From Bdellovibrionales bacterium (lineage in GTDB: Bacteria > Bdellovibrionota > UBA1018 > CAIMNF01): a stretch of DNA of 34,169 bases. The DNA lies in the NCBI GenBank assembly GCA_947462765.1, contig CANHQK010000023.1:1-34169 (forward strand), read 5' to 3'. The position numbers were made by a program, and so were the translations under genes. This document shows, piece by piece, positions 1,559-27,838 of the stretch. The notes below the pieces were generated by a model. That model did no database searches, was not told the origin of the DNA, and worked only from the letters and a program-made list of their open reading frames with translations. Positions within the stretch are counted from its first letter, which is position 1. Each line of letters begins with the position of its first letter.

Positions 1559-3823
1559 CTAGAGCCCCCGACGCATCTTGAGGATTTCTTCAATCGAAAT
1601 CGTAGAAAGCTGGGAGCTGTCTAAGACGGTATCAACCATTTTCATGGTGGGCTGCCCGGTGATTTCGTGAATCTGCCTCATTTGGACATGAATCTGGACC
1701 ACTCCACCGGTTGCGCACCTGACCTTGTCTGCCGCGGCTGCAGAGTCGATGAAGGTCTTCTGCGGATTCACTCCCGGAACGGGCTTCTTGCACGAAACGA
1801 CCGTGGCGGCACGAAGCAGAACCGGGCACCGACGCATCTCATCGATGGTGGTCGGAATGGTCTTTCCTTTTTTCCGGACCTCCGTGCGGATATGCGTGAA
1901 GGCTGCGCCTTGGGGGATCGGAAGCGGGGTTCCGACCGCCACCATGTTCCCTGCTCCCACCGAGTTTTGCTGGACCACGGTCTGGGCCGGGTCCACGCGG
2001 TATCCTTGGATGGGTCCGAGCGCTGCAAACTCACTGAACTCACCACAGCGACGGAGTGATCCGCCTTCGAGTGCGTAGAATCCTGAAATCGGCTTTCCGC
2101 CAAATCCCGCCAACAAGGTGGCATAAGGAGCGGCTCCGTTCAGATCCTGGTCCTTCCCGGCCCAAAGCTGATCGAAGCTCGAGGCCACACCTGCATTTTC
2201 GATGCAGTCGAACTTCAGGTGGCTTCCTCCACTGAAGGCTCCGTCGATTTCATTCAAGCAACACTTCAATTTTGGATTAAGAAAGCTCCGAATATCTTCC
2301 GAGCCCGGAACCGAAGGCATGACGCTCGAGTTCACCGGAGCTCCGCAAGAGTGGTACTCAGGGGTCGGCAAACATTCTCCTCCCGATCCCTTTGTAAAAC
2401 CCTTCCGACACTGGGTCGGATTGAGCGGATCCGCAAAGGGTGAAGCCGAAGGCACCGGATTCGCCGAAACGCCGATCACCGGGGGGCACACATAGGGAGG
2501 AGCAAAACAGTCCCCATTCATGCAGCACCCCTGGCTTGCAGTCATCACGCCCACCGATCCCAACTGGTCCTGACAGGCCACTCCGACCGCACAGTTCGAT
2601 GCCGAAGACGGCGTCGGTGGAGAAGTCGAGGGCGGAATACATTCAATAAAGGGCGGACTCAGGGAAATGAGTCGCCGCAGGGTACGCCCCGTCCGAGGGT
2701 CGATGAGTCCAGTGTTTTCCATGTAAAGACAGCTTGGATCACAAGCTACTCCGGGCAAGCAAATCTGCCGCCACTGCCCGGTTTTCCCGGGCTGCGCAAT
2801 TGGGGTACAGTTATCATCTAAAGCACAAGTCGGGAGTCCCGGGATCGGAGCGGATGAAGAACCACTTCCTGAGCCGCTTCCCGAACCACTGCCCATGCCG
2901 CTACCGAATCCACTACCGGAACCGCGTCCCGGACCGCTTCCGGATCCGCTTCCTCCACCCGAGCACGAGAATGGCCCGAGCAAGCAAGCAATTGGAGTGC
3001 CGTTTCGATCTACTTTGCAGCAACCTCCCGCTTCTGAACAACACGGATTTCCGCGACCAGCGAACCAGAGGCCGGCTTGCCCACCCGCACCCTGACAAGA
3101 GTCTCCGATATTGCAAGAGGGAGTCGGGGATACGGGAGGAGGGGCAGAACAAGTAGACCAAGCTGCCAAACAAACCTGCGCGGTGTTATCGATACAACAG
3201 TTGTTCGGCCCATCATAGGTACAGGAGTGGCCACGCGGACAAGGACCGCAATTCCAACCGTTGGTGCATGATGTGGCCGGCGTGGGAGTGGGTGTCGCAG
3301 GATTGGGGCTACAGGTGATAGGGGGCACGAGGCAAACTGGAAAAGGACCCGAGGTGCAACAGGCTCCATTGTCCCAAGTACCGGTCTGTGTTCCGTTGGT
3401 ACAACGATCTCCCTGGTTACAAGATGGGGTCCCGGATGGGGTTCCAGATCCGGTTCCGCTCCCACCCGAAGCGACACAAGCCGTTCCCAATGTGTTGGGA
3501 GCGTAGCCTGCGGCGCAAGTGCACTCATTCAGGCCCGAGATCAAAACGCGATTGGATCCGCACGGGGTCGAGATCCGACAACTCGTGCCCCCCGGCACTC
3601 CCTCATAGGGTAAAGTTCTGACCCCGCAATTATAGGAGCCCGCCCCCGAAAAAACACAGGCCCCACCCGAGAGATTGTATTGAGGAGGACAGGTGATCTC
3701 ACAATCTCCGTAGGAGTTCAATTGAGCCGTACCTCCAGCCGGAGCCACGCAAGACCATGCCGACTCAGTGGACAGCAGAAAAAGAAAAATAACCCCGAAC
3801 CGAAACCACCCCGTATGCAACAT
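1559..3823 (-). CDS. Large secreted Cys-rich repeat protein with Gly-Ser linker
   Basis: A protein of 754 residues with an N-terminal signal peptide (core VIFLFLL, likely cleavage near residue 24, just before Cys25). Residues 25-120 are Cys-rich. Five Cys-rich units follow at about 135-171, 186-225, 237-287, 333-395 and 411-446. Most have the pattern C-x(4-6)-C, a central CC pair and two late Cys. Pro/Thr-rich spacers and a Gly-Ser repeat linker (about 289-324) separate them. Residues 470-641 form a domain shared with the next gene downstream. ATG at 3823 is preferred over a TTG at 3838 because GAGAGGG lies six bases before it. The stop of the upstream membrane-protein gene is about ten bases away, so the two are probably co-transcribed. 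Many disulfides and flexible linkers suit an extracellular or surface-exposed protein. I do not recognise a named family. Confidence 0.85.
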   Translation of the reverse strand: MLHTGWFRFGVIFLFLLSTESAWSCVAPAGGTAQLNSYGDCEITCPPQYNLSGGACVFSGAGSYNCGVRTLPYEGVPGGTSCRISTPCGSNRVLISGLNECTCAAGYAPNTLGTACVASGGSGTGSGTPSGTPSCNQGDRCTNGTQTGTWDNGACCTSGPFPVCLVPPITCSPNPATPTPTPATSCTNGWNCGPCPRGHSCTYDGPNNCCIDNTAQVCLAAWSTCSAPPPVSPTPSCNIGDSCQGAGGQAGLWFAGRGNPCCSEAGGCCKVDRNGTPIACLLGPFSCSGGGSGSGSGPGRGSGSGFGSGMGSGSGSGSGSGSSSAPIPGLPTCALDDNCTPIAQPGKTGQWRQICLPGVACDPSCLYMENTGLIDPRTGRTLRRLISLSPPFIECIPPSTSPPTPSSASNCAVGVACQDQLGSVGVMTASQGCCMNGDCFAPPYVCPPVIGVSANPVPSASPFADPLNPTQCRKGFTKGSGGECLPTPEYHSCGAPVNSSVMPSVPGSEDIRSFLNPKLKCCLNEIDGAFSGGSHLKFDCIENAGVASSFDQLWAGKDQDLNGAAPYATLLAGFGGKPISGFYALEGGSLRRCGEFSEFAALGPIQGYRVDPAQTVVQQNSVGAGNMVAVGTPLPIPQGAAFTHIRTEVRKKGKTIPTTIDEMRRCPVLLRAATVVSCKKPVPGVNPQKTFIDSAAAADKVRCATGGVVQIHVQMRQIHEITGQPTMKMVDTVLDSSQLSTISIEEILKMRRGL

Positions 3824-3834
3824 GCGATACCCTC

Positions 3835-5970
3835 TCAACCCAGTTTAACAGCTCGACTCTGAAAGCTCTTGCTTATTTTTTTAAATGAACTCCATTGAAT
3901 CCACACTTGCCGAAAAAGAAAAACCAACCAGAAGATCAAGGAAACCCCATAGGAAATCCACATGAGGACAGTCCTCTGATAGGTCACCTCCACCGTTCCG
4001 GCTCCTCGGAAAACCAATCCCGGATAGGCCTTCATGAATTTGATTTCCGCTCCTTTTGAATCACGAATCCGCATTCCCGGCTGGGGATGGACCCGAAGGT
4101 GAACCCAGGCCTCGTTGGATGGAAGGTCCACCCGATACCGCCCCTTTCCCAACGAGGTAACGGGGGGCACTCCGCTCCGGACTGCAGGCTCCGGTTTCCG
4201 GAGCAATTCCTGATTGAAAGTGTCCCGGTCCTCAGGATAAATCCCAGGAGCCACCTGAGAGACCCCCTCCATTGCGGCATTCATTCGAGCCAGAACCGGC
4301 CCACCGAAATAGGGGTATTTTCCAGTGGGCGTTGCGAAATAAGACTCATTCGGGTTGAAGTACACCGCTCGCGAATGGTGCCGGGGATCGACCACGAGGA
4401 TATTTTTCGGCTCTCCTTGGAACCGGAAACTCCCCGCAGGAATCCAAGGGACCTCTTCCAAGCCTTTCGAAAGGACCTGCTTCCAACAGGAGCGCTTCGG
4501 CTCCGGGATCCACTCCAGATCCACGTCACCATAAACCAGGTAGCCGATGTCTAGGACCTGGATCGCATCCTTCAGCACCCGCTCAAAAGCCCCGCAATAG
4601 GGCGGATTCAGGTAATAGTAATCGAGCACCGCAGGAGGACCGAATAGGGTGACCAGATAAGAGCTGATGATGGCATTTCCGGTGGAACCCTCCCAATGCA
4701 AGCCCCGAATCGAGGAAAAACCGGGAAAGGCTCCGAGCAGGATGTAATCCAAACCGAAGTCGCAAGAACGGGTCCGCCCTAGAACCAGTGTTCTTCCACC
4801 GGTCCCCTTCCTCCATCCGTCGGGATACGACTCAACCTCGAGCGGAGGCTTGAGAGCCAGGGAGCCCCGGGTGACACTCCACCAGGGACTCATTTGGGTG
4901 CCAAGAGTCAGCCCCGTCAGGAGCAGACAGGCCCACATGCTCCTCTTCACTGAACTGCGGGAACTCCTGACATCGGCCGACCCCAACAAGCCCGCCCAGA
5001 ACAGGATCCAGGCCGGCATCGCCAAACGGTAAAAATGAAAAGAAATCGACTCATCCAGGTGGGCCCCGAGGCGCGGAAAAAGAATCAGAGGAGCATAGAG
5101 GATTGTGGCCAAAACAATCCAGACACTCCCCTTCCACCGTTGCCAGAGCGAAAGCGCCGCAGTCAGCGCCATGAGCACCAGCGTCCACGTTGACTGATTG
5201 AAGTAAATGGTCGAGGAGATCATCCATTTCCGGTAGGCCAGGAAGGGTAAGGTGAAAAAAGCGGTTGCCGCAAACAGGATCGCGATCCCTTTCAGGATAT
5301 CGGGACGCCTCCACTTCCGGGTGAACGCGATGATCAGGTACACGAGACTTGCCAGGATCCCCGTAATCAGGTGCGACAGGATACAAAAGCCGGTCCAGAA
5401 GAGGACCCGGGGTTTGGATGGAGGAGCCTCCTGGAAGGCCAGTCTCAGCAACTGGAAGAATCCGATCCCCGAGAGGAACTGACTCGAAAGCCCGATCACC
5501 ACCGCATCGAAAATCGACCACCCTTGCAGATTCGACGAGTCGAACTTCTGCAAATGAAACAACCAGAGCAGTCCGGCAGCGAAGACCAACCGGGTCCATC
5601 CTTTTTGAAGGGTCAGCACCCAGGTGCATTGAGAGGCCAGAAAAAGGAGCAGGATGAGCGAAACGTAGATCGGATAGAGTTCAAAACCCGTCCATCCACT
5701 CAGCAGCTGGAGTCCGGCAAGGAGAAAGTCCTCCAGCGGAGGATAAAAGAGGTTCTGGATGGAACCCATGAAGACCCGGTCTTGAATCCCGTGGTACCCC
5801 ACTTCGAGAAGCTGGGTCCCTCCGTAGGCGTGCCCTCCATGATCGAAGTGATACCAGGTAAAATAGCCGTAGAGTTGATGCCAGGCCCAAAGCAACGATG
5901 CGAGGTATCCCAAGAGGACGACTCCCGTGCTTTTCCTGAATCTAAGATGCCACTGTTTCAGTTTATCCAA
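3835..5970 (-). CDS. Polytopic membrane protein, GT-C glycosyltransferase-like (PTPS-related/YfhO type)
   Basis: A 711-residue integral membrane protein. Residues 18-36 form the first membrane segment, followed by an outer loop with FDHGGHAY and then [15 protein letters not shown]. An acidic residue in the first large loop followed by a Y-P-P-L segment is typical of GT-C-fold, lipid-linked-sugar glycosyltransferases and of the '6-pyruvoyl-tetrahydropterin synthase related' membrane family. About ten further hydrophobic stretches run to residue 370. A soluble region (370-655) follows, then a last membrane helix (about 662-685) and a basic tail. The start is TTG with no strong Shine-Dalgarno; no better in-frame ATG is visible. 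The stop is 11 bases from the ATG of the secreted Cys-rich protein, so glycosylation or surface display of that protein is a possible role. That link is inference, and the catalytic assignment is tentative. Confidence 0.75.
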
Positions 5971-8616: not shown

Positions 8617-9621
8617 ATGAGAGCGAGAATCACAATGTTTCAGGCCCTGTTGACCCTGCTCGGCACCCTGCTCACCCCCGTTTTTGGAAGCCAGGCACTG
8701 GCCGGTTGCCCCGACTCGTCCCGGCGGGAAACCCCGTCTGACTGCCCCTGGGCCGAGGTGACCCGCGTGGTCGAAGGCATTGAGGACCCGAACCGGATCC
8801 GGGAAGCCATCGAAACCCGCATTCCCGGCTTCTTGAAACAGCTCGAACAGGACCACGAGACCCCGCTCCTCTTTCAACTCTGGGGCATGAGCCGCAATAT
8901 CGACGAAAGCCACCTCTCCACGGGACGGAGAACTGTTTCGCCCGCCATCCTGAAAGCCCTGAACTCAATCTGGAATGTGGGCTATGACAACGATTATATC
9001 CACGGCCACGCCGGCCTCACCCACACCTACGGTTACCTTTTTTCGAACCTCGAGACTCCTTTTGGCTACAAGCGCGCACGATACGCCCGAAACGAGATTG
9101 AGTCCGGCTTCGGTCTGCCCGCAGGACTCTTTTCTGGACGGCCAGCGAAGGGAACTCTGTTTTCGAATCTGACCGTCTTCGCCGGAAAGATCGCTTTCCG
9201 GGATCATGAACCCGCCATGAAGCTGCTCGATGAAGCCATCGGTCAGATCGGTCGGACCGCTCCGGCGGAGCTCCTCTCCTACCCTTACGGTTCCCTCAAA
9301 CTGCGTCGTTTGGTGGAGTGGACCCGCAACGATGCCTTCACCCTGGAGCTCCGGACGGACATCGTGTCCTTCCCCAAAGCGAATCCGGCAGGAAGGAACA
9401 CGGCACTTCTCATTTACTCAATGGTCTACAAGAAAGACGGAAAGGATCGCGCCCGTCCGAGGCTGATCACGGTATTCCCGGTGGACTCGGGCTTCGCCGC
9501 CAATCTCTTTAAAGCAGACGGACTTGGCGAGCGCGTCCCCTTCAAGCTCAAGTACAATGCCTCTGTCCAGGGGGACTTGAACCAGGCCCTGCTCGTGGGG
9601 CGAAGGTTCATCGTCGAATGA
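8617..9621 (+). CDS. Exported protein (possible lipoprotein) coupled to an ABC-2 exporter
   Basis: A 334-residue protein with a clear export signal: MRAR, a hydrophobic stretch (about 8-23) and then ALAGC. LAGC fits a lipobox with Cys31 as the lipidated residue; cleavage after ALA by signal peptidase I is the alternative. The mature part has no domain I recognise; a stretch around residues 125-150 (YDNDYIHGHAGLTHTYGY) is rich in His, Tyr and Asp. The last four bases (ATGA) overlap the start of the ABC ATPase gene, so translation is coupled. The product may therefore be a periplasmic partner or substrate of that exporter. No good Shine-Dalgarno precedes the ATG at 8617. A second in-frame ATG at 8635 would remove the positively charged start of the signal peptide, so 8617 is preferred. 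Confidence 0.8.
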   Translation: MRARITMFQALLTLLGTLLTPVFGSQALAGCPDSSRRETPSDCPWAEVTRVVEGIEDPNRIREAIETRIPGFLKQLEQDHETPLLFQLWGMSRNIDESHLSTGRRTVSPAILKALNSIWNVGYDNDYIHGHAGLTHTYGYLFSNLETPFGYKRARYARNEIESGFGLPAGLFSGRPAKGTLFSNLTVFAGKIAFRDHEPAMKLLDEAIGQIGRTAPAELLSYPYGSLKLRRLVEWTRNDAFTLELRTDIVSFPKANPAGRNTALLIYSMVYKKDGKDRARPRLITVFPVDSGFAANLFKADGLGERVPFKLKYNASVQGDLNQALLVGRRFIVE

Positions 9622-10616
9622 GCACCTCCTCGCCGGCCATCCGGGTGGATGGTGTCACCCGAAGCTTCCGCTCCGTAAAGAAAGAAGAAGGCCTCAAAGG
9701 GACCCTGAAGCTCCTCTTCAGCCCCGAGTACGTGACCCACGAGGCTCTCAAAGGAATCACCTTCACCATCCCGGCCGGGGAGTTCACCGGGCTCATCGGC
9801 GCGAATGGCGCAGGCAAGACCACACTGCTCAAGATCCTGTCCGGACTGATCCCTCCGACCTCGGGCGAAGCCACCGTGCTCGGCTTCACGCCCTTCGAGC
9901 GTTCGCTAGAGTTCAGAAAACAGATCTCGATCGTGATGGGCCAGAAGGCCCAGCTCTGGTGGGACCTTCCTGCCATCGAGGCTTTCGATCTCCTTCGGGC
10001 GCTCTATCAGATTCCCCGCGATCTCTATAAGAAGAGAGTGGAGGAACTCACCACACTCCTGGGCGTGGACAAGCACCTGAATACCCAGATCCGGAGACTC
10101 TCACTCGGCGAGCGGATGAAGATGGAAGTGATCGGCGCGATCCTGCACCTCCCGCGGGTGATCTTCCTCGATGAGCCGACCATTGGCCTCGACGTGCTGG
10201 CAGCCAAGCGCCTTCGGGAGTTCTTGAAGAACCACAATCAAAAAGAGGGAGCGACCATCATCCTGACCTCGCACAACATGGATGACATCTCGGAGCTCTG
10301 TAAACGGATCCTCCTGATCAAAGAGGGGGAGATGATCTTTGATGGCGACCCTCACACCCTGACCCGTCAGGACGAGTGCGTCTTGAGGATCAAGCTTCTT
10401 TCAGAACCGGCGGTGGAGGACTTCGCGCGGAAGATGGAGTCCGCCACGGACCGGGTTCAAAAAGACGAGGAAGACCCCACCACCTATTTGCTGACCATTC
10501 CGCGCACCCGCATGACTGAGACCTTTCAGCGCTTGCTGGCCCAATTCGAAGTGGCCGATATCGGAATCCAGGAAGCCTCGCTCGAGCGGGTCATCCAGAA
10601 GATCTACCAGAACTGA
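9618..10616 (+). CDS. ABC-2 type exporter, ATP-binding subunit (COG4586-like)
   Basis: A 332-residue cytoplasmic ATPase that would power the two permeases encoded next. Visible motifs are Walker A GANGAGKT (61-68), a Q-loop region MGQKAQLWWDLP (about 108-118), signature LSLGE (161-165), Walker B VIFLDE (181-186) and a switch His in LTSHNMDD. The LWWDLP and TIGLDV stretches are characteristic of the uncharacterised COG4586 ATPases, which are normally found with COG4587 and COG3694 permeases. That arrangement is seen here. The about 100 residues after the nucleotide-binding domain form the usual C-terminal extension of this group. The start codon overlaps the upstream stop by four bases. Confidence 0.94.
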   Translation: MSTSSPAIRVDGVTRSFRSVKKEEGLKGTLKLLFSPEYVTHEALKGITFTIPAGEFTGLIGANGAGKTTLLKILSGLIPPTSGEATVLGFTPFERSLEFRKQISIVMGQKAQLWWDLPAIEAFDLLRALYQIPRDLYKKRVEELTTLLGVDKHLNTQIRRLSLGERMKMEVIGAILHLPRVIFLDEPTIGLDVLAAKRLREFLKNHNQKEGATIILTSHNMDDISELCKRILLIKEGEMIFDGDPHTLTRQDECVLRIKLLSEPAVEDFARKMESATDRVQKDEEDPTTYLLTIPRTRMTETFQRLLAQFEVADIGIQEASLERVIQKIYQN

Positions 10617-10626
10617 GGACGCACGG

Positions 10627-11442
10627 ATGAGTCTGGCAGGAACTCTCGCATGGCAACTGGAGTGGAGACGGGCGGCGATCACAAACGGGATCAAGGCTGC
10701 ACTCGCCTATCGGGGGGAGTTCTTTGTGGGGCTCTTTGGCTCCGCCCTCGTCCCGGTCGGGATCCAGCTCATGCTCTGGCATGCGATATTCAAGTCCGGA
10801 GGCACGGAGACCTTTGCCGGGATGTCGTATCCGGAACTGATTGCTTACACCTGGACCACCCTCCTCTTCAGTCAGATCCGGGGTGGCGACTACGACTTCG
10901 AACTGATCGAGCACATCCGCACCGGGGCACTTTCGAACTACCTGCTCCGGCCGGTGAGTGTAGTGGAGTTCATTTTCTTTCAGGGTTTTGGAGAGAAGCT
11001 CTACACCACCGTCCTCTGCCTCCTCGCAGGGTTCGCCGCGACCGCCTTCACGAAACTGACCGTGGGGCACCTTCTCCTCGGGATCACGCTTGCACTCATG
11101 GGGAACGTGATCGGGTACCTCTTTGGTGCGCTTCTCTCTGCCACGGCTTTTTATTGGGAGAATGCCTTTGCCGTGCTGATGGTGAAGAACATGGTGGTGA
11201 GCCTGCTTTGCGGAGAAGTGATTCCGCTGTCGATCGTTCCGGAGCAGTACTCCTGGGTCTGGAAGAGCACTCCGTTTTATCTGTTTGTCTACGGGCCGAC
11301 CCAGATCGCTCTCGGCAAATGGGAGCTCGCTCAAATCTATCGTGAGTTCGGAATCGCACTGCTCTGGATCTTGGGACTGGCTGGCGCGGTGAAGCTCGTC
11401 TGGCGGCACTCGATCCGCCACTACCAGGGAATCGGGGGCTGA
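10627..11442 (+). CDS. ABC-2 family transporter permease 1 (COG4587-like)
   Basis: A 271-residue inner-membrane protein with about six hydrophobic segments. The N-terminal region (LEWRRAAITNGIKAALAYRG) precedes the first transmembrane helix, and DYDFELIEHIRTGALSNYLLRPVS resembles the cytoplasmic coupling region of COG4587-type permeases. It should form a heterodimer with the next gene product and export an unknown substrate with the ATPase at 9618. GAGGA lies upstream of the ATG. The gap to the ATPase is ten bases and to the second permease three bases, indicating a tight operon. Confidence 0.92.
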   Translation: MSLAGTLAWQLEWRRAAITNGIKAALAYRGEFFVGLFGSALVPVGIQLMLWHAIFKSGGTETFAGMSYPELIAYTWTTLLFSQIRGGDYDFELIEHIRTGALSNYLLRPVSVVEFIFFQGFGEKLYTTVLCLLAGFAATAFTKLTVGHLLLGITLALMGNVIGYLFGALLSATAFYWENAFAVLMVKNMVVSLLCGEVIPLSIVPEQYSWVWKSTPFYLFVYGPTQIALGKWELAQIYREFGIALLWILGLAGAVKLVWRHSIRHYQGIGG

Positions 11443-11445
11443 ACG

Positions 11446-12231
11446 ATGCGTGTGTATTGGGACGTCTTCCTGACCAGCCTGAAAAACAATTTCGTGCGCG
11501 AGTTCATTTATCGCTCGAACACCATTGCCCTCACCCTGGCCGACATGGTCTGGGTGGTGGTCGAGTTTGCCTTCTTCGAGGTGATCTATTCGAACACCCT
11601 TTCGATCAACGGCTGGACCCGCGAGCAGGTGTTCTTCTTCCTGGGCCTCTTCATCGCCTCGGACTCCCTCTTCACGACCTTCTTCCAGCGGGCTTTTTGG
11701 ACCTTCCCGTACATGGTGAATCACGGGGACTTCGACGCGCTCCTGACCAAACCGACGAACGCAGTCTTCCTCGCGACCTTCCGGGATATCAACTTCACCC
11801 AGATCCTGAATCTCTTCCTCGGGCTCTACATGATCCACCACTATGGTGAGGCAGCCGGATTTGCGGGTGGACTGGCCTGGTTCGGGGTCGCTTTTTGGGT
11901 GCTGATCGGACTCCTGACTCAGTACCTCGTGCGCTTCTTTTTTGTGATCTGGGTGTTCTGGATCGAGCGTGGGATCATGGTGTCGCGCCTTTACTACGCC
12001 TTCTATGCGCTCGCGAACAAGCCAGAGGGACTTTATCCGCAAGCCGTGCGCTACCTGATCAAGACCGCGCTCCCCTTCGCCTTCATGGGATCGATCCCGG
12101 CCGAGGTGCTCACCGGTCGCGGAAGCGCCTGGAACTACGCTCTCGTGGTGTGCGTCCTTTCGCTTTACGGGATGTCACTCGTGTATCTTTGGAAGCGTGG
12201 CTTGCGCCGCTATCAGAGCGCGAGCTCCTGA
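11446..12231 (+). CDS. ABC-2 family transporter permease 2 (COG3694-like)
   Basis: A 261-residue polytopic membrane protein, about six membrane helices. The stretch FPYMVNHGDFDALLTKPTN followed by a second hydrophobic block is typical of COG3694 permeases, the usual partner of COG4587. It completes the three-part exporter. The ATG follows the previous stop after three bases and no separate Shine-Dalgarno is evident, so translation probably depends on the upstream gene. The stop is 14 bases before the first of three palindromes that lead into parA; no terminator-like hairpin with a T run is present, so read-through into parAB is possible. Confidence 0.92.
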   Translation: MRVYWDVFLTSLKNNFVREFIYRSNTIALTLADMVWVVVEFAFFEVIYSNTLSINGWTREQVFFFLGLFIASDSLFTTFFQRAFWTFPYMVNHGDFDALLTKPTNAVFLATFRDINFTQILNLFLGLYMIHHYGEAAGFAGGLAWFGVAFWVLIGLLTQYLVRFFFVIWVFWIERGIMVSRLYYAFYALANKPEGLYPQAVRYLIKTALPFAFMGSIPAEVLTGRGSAWNYALVVCVLSLYGMSLVYLWKRGLRRYQSASS

Positions 12232-12245: not shown

Positions 12246-12367
12246 CGGTCGCCGTGGCGACCGATGTGGGGACTGCAATCCGGTACCTCAAGCGGTCGCC
12301 ACGGCGACCGGTGATTCACTCCATTCCATTTTTTTGAATCAACCTGAATCGGTCGCCGTGGCGACCG
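12246..12367. repeat. Three copies of an 18-bp palindrome upstream of parA
   Basis: Copies lie at 12246-12263, 12293-12310 and 12350-12367. Each has the arms CGGTCGCC and GGCGACCG around a two-base centre (GT in copies 1 and 3, AC in copy 2, which is therefore inverted relative to the others). The arms are identical in all three, while the flanks differ. Starts are 47 and 57 bases apart. They lie between the exporter operon and the parA ribosome-binding site, so they may be ParA operators or ParB-binding centromere sites. They do not resemble the usual chromosomal parS site. A dispersed extragenic palindrome family is the alternative. Confidence 0.9.
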
Positions 12368-12435
12368 ATCGAAGATTTTGGTGGATCTTTGACGGCGAGC
12401 CTCTACACTTGAGTGGAAAGATCAAGGAGGCATCT

Positions 12436-13494
12436 ATGTTTCAACAACTGGTTTTCACCCCGAACGAGTTCGCGCAACTCGCTAAAATCGACAAGAGCCT
12501 GATCCCGGCTCTCGAATCCAATGGCGCGATTCACACCGAGCGGAAGCGCATCGGCAACGCGGATCGGAAGATCATCGCCCTCGAAGAAGTCCAAAAGTTC
12601 TTCAAAATGCTTCGCGAGTTCGACGAAGCAAAACATCCCGAAGTGAGCCCGGAGAGCATGGGCACCGGGGCGGAAGCTGCCGGAAGCGCCAGCATCGTAA
12701 GCGAAGTCCTGCATGAGGCAAGCAAATATATTGCGGCGCATCCAAAGCACAAGATCCAGATGTTCTACAATGTGAAGGGCGGAACCGGAAAGTCCACCCT
12801 TACGGCGCAGTTTGTCATGATGGCCTCCATCCTGGGCTACCGGGTTCTGGCCATTGATTTGGACGGCCAAGGCCACCTGAGCGTGAACCTCGATGTTCTC
12901 GACGCACACGAGCGCCCGACCATCTACGACGTGCTGATCAATGACCTGCCGATCGCGGATGCCGTGATGAATGTGGCCCCCGGGCTCGACCTGATTCCGG
13001 CCAACCTGCAGCTCTGCAACATCGAGATCCCGCTCAACAACAAGACCCGCCGGGAATACCGGCTTTCTGAGGCGCTCGAGAAGATCTCCGGCAACTACGA
13101 TCTGATCGTCGCCGACACGAACCCGGCCGCCTCGATCCTGAACGGATCCATGCTGGTCGCGTCCGAGCGGGTGAATGTGATCTGCGCCACCAACCCCCTC
13201 TCCTTTCACGGGATGTCGCTCGTGATGGCCACCATCGAAGAAATGCAGCGGGAGTTCCGGCGCACTTTGGACGTGAAAATCATCCCGAACATGTACGACA
13301 ACCGCGAGGTGATCAGCCAGGAAGTGCTGGGCGAACTCCGGGCGCAATTCCCCGAGAACTGTGCGAAATCCGTGATCAACCGGAGCGCGGACCTGAATGA
13401 AGCGACGAAGCGCCGGACCACCGTGCTCGACGTGAACACCAAAGGCACGGCCGCCGGAGACATCCACGGCCTCACTCACGAACTGCTCGGCTGA
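12436..13494 (+). CDS. parA: ParA-family partition ATPase with N-terminal helix-turn-helix
   Basis: A 352-residue Walker-type ATPase. The ATG at 12436 has AAGGAGG five bases upstream, which fixes the start. The frame is open further upstream but that part has no supporting signal. Residues 1-75 (FTPNEFAQLAKIDKSLIPAL and onward) look like a MerR-like winged helix-turn-helix, as in plasmid type Ia ParA proteins that also repress their own operon. The deviant Walker A KGGTGKST is at about 114-121, followed by LAIDLDGQGHLS (A' motif) and LIVADTNPAA (Walker B region). ParA should position cargo DNA together with the ParB encoded 23 bases downstream. The N-terminal DNA-binding domain makes the palindromes upstream good operator candidates. 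Confidence 0.92.
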   Translation: MFQQLVFTPNEFAQLAKIDKSLIPALESNGAIHTERKRIGNADRKIIALEEVQKFFKMLREFDEAKHPEVSPESMGTGAEAAGSASIVSEVLHEASKYIAAHPKHKIQMFYNVKGGTGKSTLTAQFVMMASILGYRVLAIDLDGQGHLSVNLDVLDAHERPTIYDVLINDLPIADAVMNVAPGLDLIPANLQLCNIEIPLNNKTRREYRLSEALEKISGNYDLIVADTNPAASILNGSMLVASERVNVICATNPLSFHGMSLVMATIEEMQREFRRTLDVKIIPNMYDNREVISQEVLGELRAQFPENCAKSVINRSADLNEATKRRTTVLDVNTKGTAAGDIHGLTHELLG

Positions 13495-13517: not shown

Positions 13518-14405
13518 ATGGAACAGAAAAAAGAAGCGAAAACCCGTCAAGGCAGCGGCTATCTCAAGCAGCTCTATTCGACCGCGCGCGTGAGCGCAGA
13601 CAACACCCACAGCGGACTGAAGGGCCTCACCACCTTTTTGGTGAACTTCATCCCGGTCGAGAAAGTGGACGCCTCCGAACTCCAGGTCCGGACCCACTTC
13701 GATGAGGCTGAAATCGCAGCCCTCGCCCACTCGATCAAAGAGCACGGCGTGCTCCAGCCGATCCTGGTGGTCCAGGATGGCGACCGCTACAAGGTCATCG
13801 CCGGTGAGCGCCGCTTGCGCGCCTCGAAACTGGCCGGACTGGAGCGCATTCCGGCCCGAGTGATCCACTCGAGCGACAAAGCCGTGCATGAGATCGCGCT
13901 TCGCGAAAACCTCGATCGCGTGGACCTCCATCCGATCGAAGAAGGCGAAGGCTATCAGTCTCTCATTACCGCCGGCGCCTACCCGAGCCACGATGCGATC
14001 GCGACCGCTTTCGGCAAAAAGAAGTCCCGAATCACCGAGTGCATTGGCTTCACCCGCCTTCCAACGGAAACCAAGCAGCTGTTGATCGAGAAGAGCCTGA
14101 AAGGCCGCGCCCTCCTGCGCACCCTGCTCAACTCTCCGGTCGAGGAGCACGTGGCGATCATCGCCAAGGCCTCGAATGAGGATGAAACCGGACTCCTCGC
14201 GGAAACCAAAGGTAAGGTGCTGAAAACCAACACCGAACCCAAGGAAAACGGACCGAAGCCCTTCTTGTTTGCCGTGACCCCGAAGAAAGTGAAGATCCCC
14301 GGATTCACCTGGAAAGCCGGCGAAGGCAAGGATCGCCTGATTGAAATGCGCGAAGAGCTCAAGAAGCTCTCGGATGCGATCGATCAGACCCTCTCGAAGA
14401 TGTAA
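13518..14405 (+). CDS. parB: ParB/Spo0J-family partition protein
   Basis: A 295-residue ParB-like protein. The N-terminal ParB/CTPase domain starts near residue 48 (VEKVDASELQVRTHFDEAEI), with GERRLRA at about 96-102 (the CTP-binding motif, usually GERRxRA) and LRENLDRVDLHPIEEGEGY at about 131-149. A helix-turn-helix follows (about 156-178, SHDAIATAFGKKKSRITECI). The C-terminal 80 residues do not look like the standard Spo0J dimerisation tail, which is common in plasmid-type partners. AAAGGA precedes the ATG. It should bind centromere-like sites, perhaps the palindromes before parA, and spread with CTP. A strong terminator follows 18 bases after the stop. Confidence 0.92.
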   Translation: MEQKKEAKTRQGSGYLKQLYSTARVSADNTHSGLKGLTTFLVNFIPVEKVDASELQVRTHFDEAEIAALAHSIKEHGVLQPILVVQDGDRYKVIAGERRLRASKLAGLERIPARVIHSSDKAVHEIALRENLDRVDLHPIEEGEGYQSLITAGAYPSHDAIATAFGKKKSRITECIGFTRLPTETKQLLIEKSLKGRALLRTLLNSPVEEHVAIIAKASNEDETGLLAETKGKVLKTNTEPKENGPKPFLFAVTPKKVKIPGFTWKAGEGKDRLIEMREELKKLSDAIDQTLSKM

Positions 14406-14423
14406 GAGCTTTCTTTAAAAGTA

Positions 14424-14460
14424 AAAAGCCCGGGTCGGGGATTCCGATCCGGGCTTTTTT
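14424..14460. terminator. Bidirectional intrinsic terminator between parB and the zinc GTPase gene
   Basis: A 15-bp stem (14424-14438 with 14444-14458, one G-T wobble, five-base loop) is flanked by an A run on the left and a T run on the right. It can stop both parB transcription and the convergent minus-strand gene, whose stop codon begins at the end of the T run. Confidence 0.95.
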
Positions 14461-15656
14461 CATTCCTCAATCACTTCCCACTCCGGGAACGGATCTTTGG
14501 CCTTCCGCCAGTGACCCCCACCGAGTTTTTGCTCCTCAGGAGTAAGCAAACAGGCCTGAAGCATCTCCGTCAGGCGGCCGCGGTCGAGGTCCTGTCCGAT
14601 CAGGACGATCTCATTCAAGCGATCGCCGAACACCGGATCCCAAAGCTTACGGATCCGAGTGAGCTCTTCTTCGTCGACGTCCCATTCGTCTTCGGGGGTT
14701 GCAGCAAACCAGTTGCCACCGGATTCGACATTGCTCACACAACCCGCTTGCGACCAGACGCCGATCAGATCGGGACGCGTGGCAATCCAGAAAAACCCCT
14801 TCGAGCGGATCACTCCTTCCCAGGGGGTGTGGAAGAGATTCCAAAGCCGCTCAGGATGAAAGGGCTCCTTGGCGCGGAAAACAAAACTCTCGATTCCGTA
14901 TTCATCTGCCTCGGATTTTTCCTCGCCGCGAATGATCTTGAGCCAACCGGGATTGCTCTGCGCCCGCTCGAAACTGAATCGCCCCGTATCGAGCACGAGA
15001 TCGAGACTCACCTTGGATCGAACGGTTTCGATCACCGTGGCATCCGGATTCAAGCGCTGGATGAAGCTCTTCAGCGCATTTTTCCGGTCTGAATCCATCA
15101 AATCCGCTTTGTTGAGGAGAATCACATCCGCGAACTCCACCTGGTCGATCAAAAGATCCGTAATGGTCCGCTCGTCCTCCTCGCTGATTTCGAGTCCATC
15201 GGCTTTGAGTTCGCGCCCCTCTTGCACCTGCTCCAGAAAATTTGCGCCATCCACCACCGTGACCATCGTGTCGAGGCGGGCGAAACGCGAAAGAGACTCT
15301 CCGTTCTCGTCCTCGAATGTGAAGGTCTCAGCCACTGGCAAGGGCTCCGAAATCCCCGTGCTCTCGATCAGAATGTGATCGAAGCGCCCCTCGGAAGCGA
15401 GGCGCTTGACCTCGATCAGCAGGTCCTCCCGGAGCGTGCAACAGATACAGCCATTCTGCATCTCGACGAGCTTTTCTTCGGTTCGCGAAAGCGCCATTTC
15501 GTTTTTGACCAGGGCGGAGTCGATATTGACCTCGCTCATGTCATTCACAATGACCGCCACACGCTTTCCCTCACGGTTGTGAAGGATGTGGTTCAATAAG
15601 GTGGTTTTGCCGGCACCCAAAAAGCCGGACAAGACGGTAACAGGCACAGTATTCAT
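14460..15656 (-). CDS. CobW/COG0523 GTPase, ZagA/YciC-like zinc metallochaperone
   Basis: A 398-residue GTPase with Walker A GFLGAGKT (11-18), the metal-binding CICC motif (70-73), [13 protein letters not shown], and LLNKADL for guanine recognition. Long stretches ([30 protein letters not shown]) match, from memory, Bacillus YciC/ZagA, and the length also fits (about 400). That protein delivers zinc under starvation and is Zur-controlled. The CobW C-terminal domain spans about 235-385. ATG at 15656 is chosen because it begins the conserved [11 protein letters not shown]; an upstream in-frame start at 15680 adds eight unconserved residues. There is no Shine-Dalgarno. TACTGT lies eleven bases before the ATG, preceded by a 7-1-7 palindrome, so it may be metal-regulated. 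Confidence 0.93.
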
Positions 15657-17014: not shown

Positions 17015-17132
17015 GGCCGAATCAAAGCTGTGAATCGAAGTAGGATGGGGCGCGGGGATGGGCATATCCCGGTTAGAGCAAGGACTGTTCCAACGGGTAT
17101 TGAATTGAGCAAGAACTGGCACCCACTCCCCT

Positions 17133-17147
17133 GTACAAAGTTTGTAC
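17133..17147. promoter_or_regulatory. Perfect 7-1-7 palindrome between tig and the PLD gene
   Basis: GTACAAAGTTTGTAC is a perfect inverted repeat with one central base. It lies immediately after the tig terminator and about 240 bases upstream of the PLD gene on the minus strand. The short loop argues against an RNA hairpin, so a protein-binding operator is more likely. The regulator is unknown. Confidence 0.5.
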
Positions 17148-17149
17148 GG

Positions 17150-17189
17150 CTGAAAACAGAACCGCCTCCCCCGGAACCCGGAGGAGGCG
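17150..17189 (-). terminator. Intrinsic terminator of tig
   Basis: On the minus strand a 12-bp GC-rich stem (one T-G wobble, GTT loop, plus-strand 17163-17189) is followed by GTTCTGTTTTC. The T run is interrupted, but the position 30 bases after the tig stop fits. Confidence 0.85.
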
Positions 17190-17218
17190 ACTTCGAAACA
17201 CTCCATGGAAAGACAGGA

Positions 17219-18565
17219 TTACTTGCCCTTCTTTTCCTTGATCTTGGCGGCACCGAGGATGAGCCGGATGGTCAGCTCCTCACGAACCCGGTACTCGAAA
17301 TTAGAACGATCCCGAGGATTGGCATCGAACCGCGCCTTCAACGACTGGGCGTCGGTTCCGAAGCTGGCAGCCATTTGCTGGAGCTCGGCTTCGATATCGG
17401 ATTCCTTCGCCTCGATTTTCTCTTTCTTGGCGATGGCATCCAGAAGAATGCCCGCACGAACCTGGGTCTCTGCGCGTTTTTTGAAATCCTCGAGCTGACT
17501 CATGATCGCAGACTGAACCATCTGATCATTGAACCCGTAACGCTTGAGCTCATTGGAATAATCATCAGCCAGCGCACGCATCTGGCTGTACACCAGAGCC
17601 TGAGGGACTTCGAACGTGTTTTTTTCGATGAGCTTCTCGATCATCTGGTTGCGGAGGAGGTTGTCGTTCTCCTCTTTCTTGGTCTTGGCCAGACGCTCTT
17701 TGGACTTGGTCTCGAAATCGGCGGTGCTCTCGTATCCGAATTCCTTCGCGAACTCCTCGGTCCACTCGGGAAGTTTCTTTTCCTTCACTTCACGAACGTC
17801 GATGGTGTATTCGGCTTCTTTGCCGGCGAGATTCTGGTCCTTGTAATCCTTGGCATAAGTCATCTTGAAGGTATTGGTTCCACCGGCCTTCACACCGATC
17901 AGGCCCGCTTCGAACTCAGGAATCAGTTGTCCACTTCCGATTTCGGCCGAGCGATTGCCCGAGAGGTTCGCATCTGGAGTGAATCCCGCGTCGGTTTTCA
18001 ACTTACCCTCGTATTTGAAATCCACGTAGTCGCCCGTTTTCGCTGCACGGTCGACAGGAAGCATCTCCGCTTTGCGATTCAGGAGGTTCTTGCGGACAGC
18101 ATCGAGATCCTCAGCACTCACTTCATCAGAGTTTTTCTCGAGAGCGAGGCCTTTGTAATCCTTTGGTTCGATCTCGGGAACGATTTCGACGGTTGCAGCA
18201 AAAGAGAGCGGCTCGCCATCGTGGATGTGAATGTGATGGTGCTGATGACCTTCTTCACCTTCGTGCCCGTGGGGCACACCTTCAATTTGAGGCTCACCGA
18301 CAATGCGCAGAGGGTGTTGCTTGAGCGCCTCGGAATAAGATTCGCTGATCAAAGTCTGAAGCGCGCGTTGTTTCACGTCTTCGGCGTAAAACTGCTTCAC
18401 CATGTTCAGAGGCACCTTGCCGGGACGGAAGCCCTTGATGGATGCCGTCTTCTGGGTCTCGAGGAACTTCTTTTCAACGGTCTTCTGGACCCGATCGGCG
18501 GGAATGGTGACCAGGAACTTCTTCTGAATGGGGGAAATGGTTTCCAACTTGATTTGAGTTTGCAT
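17219..18565 (-). CDS. tig: Trigger factor (ribosome-associated chaperone and peptidyl-prolyl isomerase)
   Basis: A 448-residue three-domain trigger factor. The ribosome-docking signature GFRPGKVP is at 45-52, the FKBP-like PPIase domain about 160-245 (TGDYVDFKYEGKL), and the helical chaperone arms make up the rest. It binds L23 at the exit tunnel and shields nascent chains. An unusual feature is a His-rich loop at about 97-117 (eight His between residues 99 and 115) in the N-terminal domain where most family members have a short acidic turn. The ATG lies 92 bases inside the end of truA, in another frame, with no Shine-Dalgarno; TATAAA lies ten bases before it. Expression may therefore come by coupling or from a very short-leader transcript. 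Confidence 0.97.
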   Translation of the reverse strand: MQTQIKLETISPIQKKFLVTIPADRVQKTVEKKFLETQKTASIKGFRPGKVPLNMVKQFYAEDVKQRALQTLISESYSEALKQHPLRIVGEPQIEGVPHGHEGEEGHQHHHIHIHDGEPLSFAATVEIVPEIEPKDYKGLALEKNSDEVSAEDLDAVRKNLLNRKAEMLPVDRAAKTGDYVDFKYEGKLKTDAGFTPDANLSGNRSAEIGSGQLIPEFEAGLIGVKAGGTNTFKMTYAKDYKDQNLAGKEAEYTIDVREVKEKKLPEWTEEFAKEFGYESTADFETKSKERLAKTKKEENDNLLRNQMIEKLIEKNTFEVPQALVYSQMRALADDYSNELKRYGFNDQMVQSAIMSQLEDFKKRAETQVRAGILLDAIAKKEKIEAKESDIEAELQQMAASFGTDAQSLKARFDANPRDRSNFEYRVREELTIRLILGAAKIKEKKGK

Positions 18566-19376
18566 AGGGGTCTGGTTTATACCAAACCCGCTCCAAAGTC
18601 AGCCCTTTTGCAGGGGCAGTAGGTCCGACTGCATGCCGGTCCCCGGTTCTGAGCAGATCCGCCATATCCGAGGGTTTGCGGTGCTTTTCACCGATCTGGA
18701 GCAAGGTTCCGGCGATTCCCCGGACCATTTGTTTCAAAAAACCGGTCCCGACCAGCCTGACCCGAATCATGGAATAGCCGGCCTCGTCCAAATCCTGACC
18801 GGGAAAGGCGGGCATCGGCAGGCGGACGACCTCGGCCTCGATCAGGGTCCTGACCGTCGATTTACCCGGATTTCCGCCCGAAGCCTGGAACACCCTGAAG
18901 TCATGCTCCCCCACCAGGAAAGACACGGCCTCTTGCATCGCCTTTTCATCCAAACGCCGATGAATCCACCAGGAAACATCCCTCCACTGCGGAAGATCCG
19001 AAGGGCCCTGAAGGAAATAGTAGCTGTATTGCTTTTGAGTGGCTGACCTCTGGGCATGGAACTCTTCGGGGACCTTCATCGCTTCCATGATCCGGATATC
19101 GCGAGGAAGCAGGGAATTCAGCCCTCGCCTGAGAACGTCGGTGGTGAATCGTTCTGTGGGCAGTCGAAAATGCACCACCTGACCGAGAGCATTCACCCCC
19201 GCATCGGTCCGTCCGCTCCCGACCACGGTCACGGGATGGTTCGCCATTTTCGACAAGGCCGCCTCGACCGTCTCTTGGATACTCGGGGGAAGGTCGGTAC
19301 GCTGTCCCTCGGCTTTTTGTCTTTGCCAGCCGCAATAGTTCCGACCGATATACGAGATCCGGAGCGCGTATTTCAT
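18474..19376 (-). CDS. truA: tRNA pseudouridine(38-40) synthase
   Basis: A 300-residue TruA. Catalytic Asp58 lies in GSGRTDAG (53-60); the family usually continues VHA, here VNA. ISYIGRNYCGWQRQ at the start and the RVRLVGTGFLKQMVRG segment are typical. It converts uridines 38-40 of the tRNA anticodon arm to pseudouridine. ATG at 19376 begins the conserved MKYALRISYIG; the frame is open further upstream but overlaps the preceding gene. The family's usual end (LERVWYKPDPY) is followed by about 30 extra hydrophilic residues encoded inside tig. The start follows the stop of the CFI-box gene after two bases, so translation is probably coupled. Confidence 0.96.
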   Translation of the reverse strand: MKYALRISYIGRNYCGWQRQKAEGQRTDLPPSIQETVEAALSKMANHPVTVVGSGRTDAGVNALGQVVHFRLPTERFTTDVLRRGLNSLLPRDIRIMEAMKVPEEFHAQRSATQKQYSYYFLQGPSDLPQWRDVSWWIHRRLDEKAMQEAVSFLVGEHDFRVFQASGGNPGKSTVRTLIEAEVVRLPMPAFPGQDLDEAGYSMIRVRLVGTGFLKQMVRGIAGTLLQIGEKHRKPSDMADLLRTGDRHAVGPTAPAKGLTLERVWYKPDPYANSNQVGNHFPHSEEVPGHHSRRSGPEDR

Positions 19377-19378: not shown

Positions 19379-21595
19379 TCAAATCTCGAACAGGAATCCG
19401 GCATAGATTCCGGAGCGTCCGAAAGAAACCCCTGTCCGGTTGAACGAGGAAAGATAAAAGTACTCGGCAACAAGATAAGTGTGCTGGATCCCGCGCGAGA
19501 GCCAACCGTCGAGCGCGGTTCTGGAGTCGAAGAAGTCGAGAGCCAGGGCCAACCCGCCGCTCCCCGCAAATACGAAAGAATACCCTCTCTTGTCACCGGC
19601 ATCGTCTTCTCGAACTTCGGTGTAAAACACCGTACCGGCTCCTGCGGAAACATAAGGGCGCAGAACCCGGAGCAGATTGAAGCGATAAGTCGCATTCACT
19701 AGCAGGGGGATCTGAAGAAACGAGAATCTAGTCTGAGAAACCGAATTCCCGTTGAAATTGAAACTGAGCAGTCCGTACCCGGACGAGTAGCTGAGCCCGG
19801 TATCGAAACCGACGCCGAAACTGCCTAGAAATTCAGAATGAAAGAGCTGTCGCTCGTAGTGAAGCAAGAGCTCGGGTTGCCAACTGGTCCCGTAGAGGGC
19901 GTCGAATCCGATACTCCCGGAGGAGTTCGTCACCGTCATCCCGGGAGAGACTCCGATCTTGAATCCGATGGCGGACTCAATGTCAGGACGCTCCATCACC
20001 TTCCGGGTGGACTTCCCCGACTTGACCTCGAGCGGAAGGGAGAGCCACGGATCGTCGCCGATTTTTTGCCGCTCTTTTTCGGAATACCCTTCGGAGGACT
20101 CCTCGTCCGGAATTCCGGATCTGAGTCGGGACGTATAGGTGCCAGGTCTCGGTGAGGGCGCCGCGGGAGCACGGGGGGGATTCGCCTCATCCGGAATATC
20201 GAGGGTCGGATCGCTCTTTTTGAGGCGGTCAATGTAAGGCTGGGACGAAGACGCTTCTTCAGCATCGGCCAGCTTGAGCCACAGCCAGGCCGCCAATTCA
20301 ACGGGAGCAAGAAGACGGAGTGCGATCGAGCGGATGATCGGCTTGTCCCAAGCCCACTCGGCCAAAGCCGGAGAATGCCGGTAGTAGGTCCGAATGATCT
20401 CTCTTCCTAAATCGCTCTTGGCCAGAATGCGATCACGGAACTTTCTGAGCACCATCACTGGCCCGGCACGACCGTCCTGGAATGCGGCCGTGGCAATGAA
20501 GCATTTGCTCTCGGTGAGTACACCCTTGATCGACTGGGCGGCAACAAAAGGCGAAGGGACCGTGCAAGACAGCGGAGAAATCAATCCGACCTTGTTTTGA
20601 GCATGAAGGTAGGCCTGGTACACATTGTCGGACCCGTTCACAGAGTTCACAAACCCGGTCACCGCCTGGTCGCCCTCTCCGATGGTGACGTAGGCGGTGA
20701 TCTCGTTCGAAGGAAGGCTGAGCGATGAACTGATCGGATTGAGGGGAATCCCGGAACCCACCCGGCTGGCCATGAAAATGAGCGAATCGAGCTCGACACC
20801 CGAATCACTCACCGTCGCCCCGTTGCCGACGGCTGCCCCGTAATTGGCGGGATTGATGTAGACCTGCTGATCCCCCGGAAAGTAATAACTGCTGATTCCT
20901 CCAGTGGGACAGGAAATGACAGGAGGAATATCGGAGACCGACAAGGTGAAAGTGGTTGTGTCGATATTCCCGCCACTCACCGCACCTGTGGTGACGAAAT
21001 CATTGACCACACTGAAGGTCACCACGATCGGCTGGGTCAGCGTCTTTCCCGCCATGGTCGTGTAGGCATTACTCGAACAAAGACTCCCCGCGGAGGCTCC
21101 CGGGGTATTGCAGAGGCTGGCAAAGGTGAATGCGACCCTCAACACGGTTCCCGCCTGATACGAGGCGGAAAGGTTCGATGCGCCTGTCCTGACGCCCTGA
21201 CAGGAGACGTTTCCGTTCGCCCCGCAAACCGGAGGCGCTGTATTGCTGGACACGATCCCTGCACCATAAAGAGGGATTTCGCTCCCGGCGGTGGAATTTG
21301 CAGAGAGGGTCACGACAATGTGCTGATTGGCATTGACCGTGAAGGGCTGGTTGCTGCTCACGTCGAGCCAGATCATGTTATCGACGTTCGTGGCCAAGGT
21401 GTTCAAGAACCGGAAGCCCAGCGATCCGTTGATGAAGGCGCCGTTGTAGGGCGTCCCTGCGAAATTGCCGGCGAGAGGGATCGTGTACCCGGTATCACCG
21501 AGCCTTTTCTGGGGCAAGGGAAGCGGAGGGTTCACCAATACCGTGGCCTCGGCACCCGTCAGGAAAACCAGCACTCCGAGCATCCAAGTCAGCAT
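19379..21595 (-). CDS. CFI-box protein fused to a C-terminal outer-membrane beta-barrel
   Basis: A 738-residue exported protein. A signal peptide (residues 1-17, cut after AEA) is followed by about 340 residues rich in Ser, Thr, Asn and Gly with beta character. At about 365-371 is CFIATAA, followed by VLRKFRDRIL, an IIRTYYRHSPALAEW segment and a hydrophobic helix. This is the 'CFI-box' module, usually found near the C-terminus of exported proteins. Here it is followed by a Pro/Ser/charged linker (about 440-510) and a predicted beta-barrel (about 520-738) ending in FLFEI, an outer-membrane-protein-like aromatic terminus. AGGAGG overlaps the pssA stop nine bases upstream, giving a strong start. 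The gene sits between pssA and truA. Its function is unknown; an outer-membrane location is likely. Confidence 0.85.
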   Translation of the reverse strand: MLTWMLGVLVFLTGAEATVLVNPPLPLPQKRLGDTGYTIPLAGNFAGTPYNGAFINGSLGFRFLNTLATNVDNMIWLDVSSNQPFTVNANQHIVVTLSANSTAGSEIPLYGAGIVSSNTAPPVCGANGNVSCQGVRTGASNLSASYQAGTVLRVAFTFASLCNTPGASAGSLCSSNAYTTMAGKTLTQPIVVTFSVVNDFVTTGAVSGGNIDTTTFTLSVSDIPPVISCPTGGISSYYFPGDQQVYINPANYGAAVGNGATVSDSGVELDSLIFMASRVGSGIPLNPISSSLSLPSNEITAYVTIGEGDQAVTGFVNSVNGSDNVYQAYLHAQNKVGLISPLSCTVPSPFVAAQSIKGVLTESKCFIATAAFQDGRAGPVMVLRKFRDRILAKSDLGREIIRTYYRHSPALAEWAWDKPIIRSIALRLLAPVELAAWLWLKLADAEEASSSQPYIDRLKKSDPTLDIPDEANPPRAPAAPSPRPGTYTSRLRSGIPDEESSEGYSEKERQKIGDDPWLSLPLEVKSGKSTRKVMERPDIESAIGFKIGVSPGMTVTNSSGSIGFDALYGTSWQPELLLHYERQLFHSEFLGSFGVGFDTGLSYSSGYGLLSFNFNGNSVSQTRFSFLQIPLLVNATYRFNLLRVLRPYVSAGAGTVFYTEVREDDAGDKRGYSFVFAGSGGLALALDFFDSRTALDGWLSRGIQHTYLVAEYFYLSSFNRTGVSFGRSGIYAGFLFEI

Positions 21596-26491: not shown

Positions 26492-27046
26492 CTAGATCGT
26501 CATGATCTCTTTCTCTTTGGTGGCAATTACCTTATCGATCTCGGCGACTTTCTCGTCAGTTTTCTTCTGGATCTGCTCCTGGAACTTCTTGGATTCATCA
26601 GCGGAGATGGCTTTGTCCTTCTCCTGCTTCTTCACGTCCTCGTTGGCATCACGGCGGTGGTTCCGGATCGCAATCTTGGCGTCTTCGCCCATCTTTTTGA
26701 TCATCTTCACCATTTCTTTACGGCGCTCCTCGGTCAGGGGCGGCATGGTGATGCGGATCACTTTTCCGTCATTCTGCGGAGTGAATCCCACGTTGGCTTC
26801 CAGAATGGCCTTCTCAATCGCTCCGAGCATGGAGGTTTCCCACGCGACGATCTGAATGGTCCGCGCATCAGGCGTGGTCAGATTCGCCACCTGGCTGATA
26901 GCGGTTTTTGAACCGTAATAGTCCACATGGACATGGTCGATCAATGCGGTCGAAGCGCGCCCGGTGCGGACCTTGAGAAGGTCCTTCTGAAGGGACTGGA
27001 TGGTTTTATCGGAATGTGCGGTCAGGTCGGTCAGTGCTTTGGACAT
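26492..27046 (-). CDS. frr: Ribosome recycling factor
   Basis: A 184-residue RRF of standard length. KVRTGRASTALIDHVHVDYYG (about 26-46), the PLTEERRKEMVK segment (about 103-114) and the long helical bundle are typical. With EF-G it splits post-termination ribosomes. AAGGAGG stands six bases before the ATG, the strongest ribosome-binding site in this operon, as suits an abundant protein. The gap to pyrH is 27 bases. Confidence 0.98.
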   Translation of the reverse strand: MSKALTDLTAHSDKTIQSLQKDLLKVRTGRASTALIDHVHVDYYGSKTAISQVANLTTPDARTIQIVAWETSMLGAIEKAILEANVGFTPQNDGKVIRITMPPLTEERRKEMVKMIKKMGEDAKIAIRNHRRDANEDVKKQEKDKAISADESKKFQEQIQKKTDEKVAEIDKVIATKEKEIMTI

Positions 27047-27073
27047 GGTGTCCTCCTTGGAAAAATCTCGGTT

Positions 27074-27790: not shown

Positions 27791-27797
27791 AATGACG

Positions 27798-27831
27798 AAA
27801 AAAAAGGGGCCTTGATCGGAATCAAGGCCCC
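27798..27831 (-). terminator. Intrinsic terminator between tsf and pyrH
   Basis: On the minus strand a perfect 11-bp stem, GGGGCCTTGAT with ATCAAGGCCCC (27806-27816 with 27821-27831, four-base loop), is followed by eight T (27805-27798). It is one of the strongest terminators in the window and stands directly before the pyrH start. Confidence 0.95.
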
Positions 27832-27838
27832 TCGGTTC

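Follow-up and report, generated by a model that had tools for sequence, protein, structure and literature searches.

A second parAB locus with its own palindromic, probably centromeric, site in one order of Bdellovibrionota

The parAB2 locus and its three palindromes

The window, meaning the whole stretch of DNA analysed (34,169 nucleotides), comes from a Bdellovibrionales bacterium (assembly GCA_947462765.1, here the source genome, G000). It contains a parA-parB pair, called parAB2 here, and three palindromes in front of it, called parS2. The features of the locus are as follows:

9618..12231, + strand: ABC transporter (context), with an ATPase at 9618-10616 and ABC2_membrane_6 (PF06182) permeases at 10627-11442 and 11446-12231
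12246..12263, no strand assigned: putative parS2 copy 1, CGGTCGCC-GT-GGCGACCG
12293..12310, no strand assigned: putative parS2 copy 2, CGGTCGCC-AC-GGCGACCG, the reverse complement of copies 1 and 3
12350..12367, no strand assigned: putative parS2 copy 3, promoter-proximal, CGGTCGCC-GT-GGCGACCG
12382..12409, + strand: putative parA promoter region, weak, with a -10-like TACACT at 12404-12409 (sequence reading and genus comparison)
12436..13494, + strand: parA2, with an N-terminal winged-HTH at aa 1-64, a low-confidence linker at aa 65-84 and the deviant Walker A box KGGTGKST at aa 114-121
12628..12735, + strand: linker-coding part of parA2; the equivalent stretch bears one or two exact sites in 33 relatives
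13518..14405, + strand: parB2, with ParB_N carrying the CTP-binding motifs GERRLRA and ENLDRVDL, and HTH_ParB with the non-canonical recognition segment KKKSRITECIGFTRLP
14418..14464, + strand: intrinsic-terminator-like inverted repeat after parB2

The original prediction described three 18-bp palindromes with identical arms, one with an inverted centre, in front of parA and unlike the usual parS. All of this was confirmed. The exact coordinates and the GT/AC/GT centres are as listed, and all three copies lie within the 204-bp gap between the stop of the ABC-transporter gene (12231) and the parA2 ATG (12436). The asymmetry is confined to the two central bases, AC being GT read on the other strand. 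No match to a TGTTNCACGTGNAACA-like canonical parS was found at the parAB2 locus with up to three mismatches. The functional unit is better given as the 16-mer GGTCGCC-RY-GGCGACC than as the 18-mer; it is usually flanked by Y/R, with C or T at position -1 in 97% of half-sites. The putative promoter region is downstream of all three palindromes and is followed by the RBS AAGGAGG, while a consensus scan for a parA2 promoter gave no match. No exact parS2 site is present in the linker-coding part of parA2 (12628-12735) in the source species.

Several short GC-rich palindromes could also be a dispersed repeat (REP/BIME-like or the end of a mobile element) that lies here by coincidence. A scan of the 34-kb window with up to three mismatches found the three palindromes and nothing further, compared to a chance level of 0.36 matches per whole 34 kb in dinucleotide shuffles. 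Across the genome (2,325,643 bases, 2.33 Mb), up to two mismatches gave the three exact copies, at one locus, and a single further match with two mismatches; the reversed pattern, used as a control, likewise gave one match in the same scan. No further copy with up to one mismatch was found in the 2.33-Mb genome and, as described below, the site is bound to one gene pair across the order. The dispersed repeat was rejected because of this genome uniqueness and the confinement of sites to the parA2 locus, and we give it almost no probability. A dispersed repeat was also an outcome that the original prediction had named as refuting it, so the prediction stands against this check.

Proteins encoded by parAB2

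ParA2 (352 aa) has AAA_31 and CbiA matches, and its KGGTGKST box, which fits the deviant Walker A pattern KGGxGK[ST] of type I ParA proteins, is invariant in the family. An AlphaFold model built from 20 orthologues (mean pLDDT 70) predicts a confident helix-helix-strand-strand-helix at aa 9-64, followed by the linker (65-84) and a Soj-like ATPase core. In a Foldseek search, this model had a full-length match to Vibrio cholerae ParA2 (7npe), the winged-HTH domain included. Both results point to the N-terminal HTH of a type Ia ParA, and the predicted winged HTH agrees with the original claim that ParA has its own DNA-binding domain. The claim that ParB has a helix-turn-helix is likewise borne out by the HTH_ParB domain found in ParB2.

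ParB2 (295 aa) matches PF02195, PF17762 and TIGR00180, all above cutoff. Like ParB proteins of ParABS systems, it combines ParB_N with an HTH, and the CTP motifs GERRLRA and ENLDRVDLHP are conserved across the family. Its recognition segment (consensus KPKSRITECIGFTRLP) is near-invariant within the family and is unlike that of the canonical ParB in the same genome. Published specificity rules for ParB and Noc state that G1 of the site is read by R173 and C6 by R201 (PMC7383237). These rules were tried for predicting the ParB2 site, but ParB2 has K and A/S at those positions, so the simple rule fails to transfer.

Six long ORFs elsewhere in the window had no Pfam match (1559-3838, 3835-5970, 17030-18622, 19379-21595, 26927-28930 and 31236-32561).

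The site and ParA2 occur together in one order

The phylum was scanned (369 genomes, most of those studied being fragmented metagenome assemblies) for the exact 16-mer GGTCGCC-RY-GGCGACC and for ParA2 orthologues. The 16-mer was found in 49 genomes and a ParA2 orthologue in 48, with both in 47, the 16-mer only in 2, a distant ParA only in 1 and neither in 319. All 47 double-positive genomes belong to one order. The co-occurrence has a Fisher p of ~7e-56 over the 369 genomes, a value uncorrected for shared ancestry. The 47 genomes contain 155 exact 16-mers, and 142 of these fall within the stretches fetched around parA2, where composition predicts 0.0007. The inverted repeats thus cluster near parAB as in ParABS systems: each genome has one to seven exact sites, nearly all at parAB2. 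Even genomes of 38-44% GC keep the GC-rich 16-mer unaltered.

Among close relatives identified by protein search, 14 of 14 have at least one site upstream of parA. The nearest site is usually 76-130 bp before the parA2 ATG and the farthest upstream sites are ~3 kb away (G344; sites are also distant in G333 and G338). Over the upstream sites of all relatives, the spacing between neighbours is mostly 45-57 bp, with a mode of 47-48 and never less than 32 bp, and it gave no helical-phasing signal near 10.5 bp. Since site number and position differ between closely related species (the source genome, G313 and G308), the sites turn over while their sequence is kept. Several relatives also have the ABC-2 transporter next to parAB2, on its upstream side.

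Some sites lie on contigs apart from parAB2 (G324 C40, G326 C68, G344 C15 and G354 C104). G332 has four copies of the 16-mer on a separate contig, near its end, and further copies are present in G335, on C88 and C110. Those on C88, a contig other than that of parAB2, form an array of three exact palindromes and one degenerate palindrome (G335:C88, L314, 249-410), which is a duplicate, a strain variant or a true second array. In G354, the off-locus copy is one exact parS2-type site with the centre AT, ~3 kb from canonical parB (G354:C104:26996, L318); it is either a chance match or belongs to the other centromere. The two genomes that have the 16-mer and no ParA match differ. The lone site of G173 falls within a dnaJ-like gene, probably by chance. 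In G357, three sites lie close to the end of a contig, and the parAB2 of this genome may be unassembled. A scan of a viral collection gave, among the matches listed, almost only single sites, which chance could explain, given how very large the collection is.

Sites inside the parA2 coding sequence

Thirty-three parA2 genes contain 38 exact sites within the coding sequence, all at codons 60-118, between the winged HTH and the Walker A box. These sites are read in two frames, as V-A-[ATVM]-A-T (VAxAT) in 23 cases and as G-R-[HR]-G-D in 15, and five genomes have two sites each, one per frame. When all parA genes were recoded synonymously in 200 runs, a mean of 0.235 and a maximum of 3 sites arose, compared to the 38 observed. 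Selection on the linker sites therefore acts on the DNA itself.

These positions bear on the alternative that the palindromes are an operator, bound by the ParA2 winged HTH (as in P1/F-type ParA) or by another repressor, and serve only to control parAB transcription. In most genomes, sites do lie directly before parA, and the ParA2 N-terminus, being like that of V. cholerae ParA2, might in principle bind them. What defines type Ia ParA proteins is an N-terminal winged-HTH domain, and their N-terminal domains repress par transcription (PMC8397727). However, sites also occur inside parA in 33 genomes and up to ~3 kb upstream, in one to seven copies per genome, and by sequence reading they are generally upstream of the presumptive promoter, not over it. 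Their format of two 8-bp half-sites around a central RY step also fits that of ParB sites (16-bp parS/NBS). The intragenic sites, together with those ~3 kb upstream in G344, favour a centromere over a simple operator. We consider a ParA operator unlikely as the main role of the palindromes, and control of transcription alone quite improbable. The original suggestion of a new operator or centromere type thus divides: the unique locus, the order-wide co-occurrence and the intragenic sites support the centromere part, and the sites within parA and ~3 kb away speak against a classical operator, although some operator activity may accompany the main role.

Canonical parAB in the same genomes and the chromosomal position of parAB2

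The source genome also has a canonical locus with the order mnmG-rsmG-parA-parB-bactofilin-atp (names read from translations). Its parS, TGTTCCACGTGGAACA, is at G000:C1:59981-59996 (L140), inside rsmG and just upstream of canonical parA. With parS2 in parA2, both partition systems therefore have sites in coding sequence. A search for canonical ParB gave matches in 55 of 55 genomes of the order, and in 53 of these the protein is truly canonical; the sole match in G324 and G341, both incomplete assemblies, is ParB2. In each of the nine genomes examined, a TGTTCCACGTGGAACA-type parS lies 1-2 kb away from canonical parB.

Canonical parAB with its TGTTCCACGTGGAACA-type parS sits near dnaA, separate from parAB2. 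In three genomes a single contig carries both systems, and the distance from parA2 to dnaA in these is ~310 kb (G306), 159 kb (G320) and 181 kb (G348). Since this is the contig that carries dnaA, parAB2 is on the main chromosome, near the origin; the sample is biased, since a contig must be long and include dnaA to reveal such a position. In Pseudomonas aeruginosa and Caulobacter, extra parS sites are tolerated only within ~600 kb around the native parS or origin (PMC7333895), and this zone may be relevant to where parAB2 is found.

That a canonical system already supplies partition is one argument for reading ParB2 as a Noc-like or regulatory paralogue, which would bind the sites but act in nucleoid occlusion or transcription control instead of partition. 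The top NCBIfam match of ParB2 by score is indeed TIGR04285 (Noc), although at 147 bits it is far below the cutoff of 315. Against this, ParA2 is always adjacent, almost all sites are at one locus, and the clustering of ParA, ParB and sites is the layout of a partition module. To our knowledge, Noc has no ParA partner. Noc sites are reported to be scattered around the chromosome (PMC4331003). Overall, we regard a Noc-like function as unlikely.

Loss, variant sites and origin

The ABC transporter is still present in G312, G314 and G356, from which parAB2 and the palindromes are absent. Since several members of the order do not have the whole system, parAB2 is dispensable. In G353, ~six copies of a one-base variant, GGTCGCCGCCGCGACC, form an array directly after the ABC transporter that runs to the contig end (G353:C22, L311, 1-420). 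No parAB2 was found in the G353 assembly, and the array seems to reflect a site that has shifted coherently in a single species.

The nearest homologue outside the order is in G061, from another family of the phylum, with a ParA that is 40% identical and a ParB that is 32% identical over 205 aa. Its features are:

G061:C53 (L136), 2103-2249, 2983-2998 and 3852-3867: 21-bp repeats and two TTTCGCC-RY-GGCGAAA palindromes

There are ~seven of the 21-bp iteron-like repeats beside parAB. One TTTCGCC-RY-GGCGAAA palindrome is in the ParA linker, where it encodes KFRRGET, and the other is just before parB. A neighbouring ORF, located where a replication initiator would be expected, had no Pfam match. 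From this arrangement, the G061 locus would be plasmid-like. The inner TCGCC-RY-GGCGA and the linker position appear to be older than the order, the outer bases having changed.

Within the order, ParB2 distances correlate with those of canonical ParB (r = 0.84, 10 genomes, 0 of 2000 permutations), which is consistent with vertical inheritance of parAB2. An ancestor of the order probably acquired parAB2 from a plasmid-like replicon. The locus might be what is left of an integrated plasmid, decaying and now without function, as the plasmid-type ParA architecture, the replicon-like iteron locus of the closest out-of-order relative and the several genomes without parAB2 could suggest. In contrast, the system is kept up across the order with correlated ParB2 and canonical ParB distances, the protein motifs are intact, DNA-level conservation inside coding sequence is strong, and sites have repeatedly been repositioned with their sequence kept. 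A remnant is therefore very improbable.

A probable second ParABS system with its own centromere

Our preferred reading, drawn from sequence comparison and held with a probability of roughly 85%, is that the palindromes serve the adjacent ParB2 as parS-like nucleation sites (parS2), in a type-Ia-like ParABS system domesticated on the main chromosome. The uniqueness of the sites, their order-wide co-occurrence with ParA2, their multiple copies, their mobility and their upstream and intragenic positions strongly support a putative centromere with its own sequence. A wider proposal seems fairly likely, and is held with less confidence: the order would keep two centromere systems, independent and orthogonal in sequence, on one main chromosome, a canonical one at oriC and a domesticated plasmid-type one a few hundred kb away, with the centromere of the latter partly in the linker-coding part of its own parA in two frames.

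According to this model, ParB2 would bind each 16-bp GGTCGCC-RY-GGCGACC with one half-site per subunit. As its intact CTP motifs suggest, ParB2 may load as a CTP clamp and slide onto flanking DNA. The nucleoid-bound ParA2 ATPase, given its deviant Walker A box, could move or anchor the partition complex. The centromere would consist of several sites in a few hundred bases, upstream of the parA2 promoter and in the parA2 linker. The operon probably regulates itself, through ParB2 loading over parA2 and its promoter, through the ParA2 winged HTH, or both. From the anatomy of the locus, parAB2 would partition or position the origin-proximal chromosome. It coexists with canonical chromosomal ParABS without a shared site.

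In the open-access literature searched, neither the palindromic site itself nor two complete ParABS systems with unrelated parS on one main chromosome have been reported. If parAB2 is functional, whether one chromosome can run two centromeres, and why, becomes directly testable in a Bdellovibrio-related lineage. The near-invariant recognition segment, the invariant site and a distant homologue with a shifted site add a new specificity pair to the ParB/Noc specificity problem, and orthogonal ParB-parS pairs serve as useful labels of DNA loci. With its two reading frames, the site in the parA linker also offers a clean case of DNA-level selection within coding sequence.

Comparison with known systems

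Canonical chromosomal ParABS systems (parS TGTTNCACGTGNAACA), including Bd3906/Bd3905 of Bdellovibrio bacteriovorus, share with parAB2 a deviant Walker ParA, a CTPase-type ParB and 16-bp palindromes clustered by parAB on the chromosome. The parAB2 system differs from them in its site, GGTCGCC-RY-GGCGACC, in the extra winged HTH on ParA2 and in the recognition segment and N-terminus of ParB2, and it is present in addition to canonical ParABS. The extra ParA paralogues of B. bacteriovorus (ParA1 and ParA2) are orphans without ParB (PMC7186360).

Type Ia systems of plasmids and secondary chromosomes (P1, P7, V. cholerae ParA2-ParB2, Burkholderia c2/c3) resemble parAB2 in the N-terminal winged HTH of ParA and in a replicon-specific parS. 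Unlike these, parAB2 is on the main chromosome, has no adjacent replication initiator and has a ParB2 with a chromosomal-type HTH_ParB. In addition, type Ia parS is downstream of parB, whereas the parAB2 sites are upstream of or within parA2.

Noc and its NBS are similar in that a ParB-family paralogue with a diverged 16-bp site exists beside ParB/parS in the genome. In contrast to Noc, parAB2 has its own ParA and sites confined to the par locus, and ParB2 scores below the Noc family cutoff. The plasmid-like ParAB of G061 (L136) shares the TCGCC-RY-GGCGA core, found in the ParA linker and before parB, and is distinguished by outer bases of TT/AA compared to GG/CC and by the adjoining 21-bp iteron-like array.
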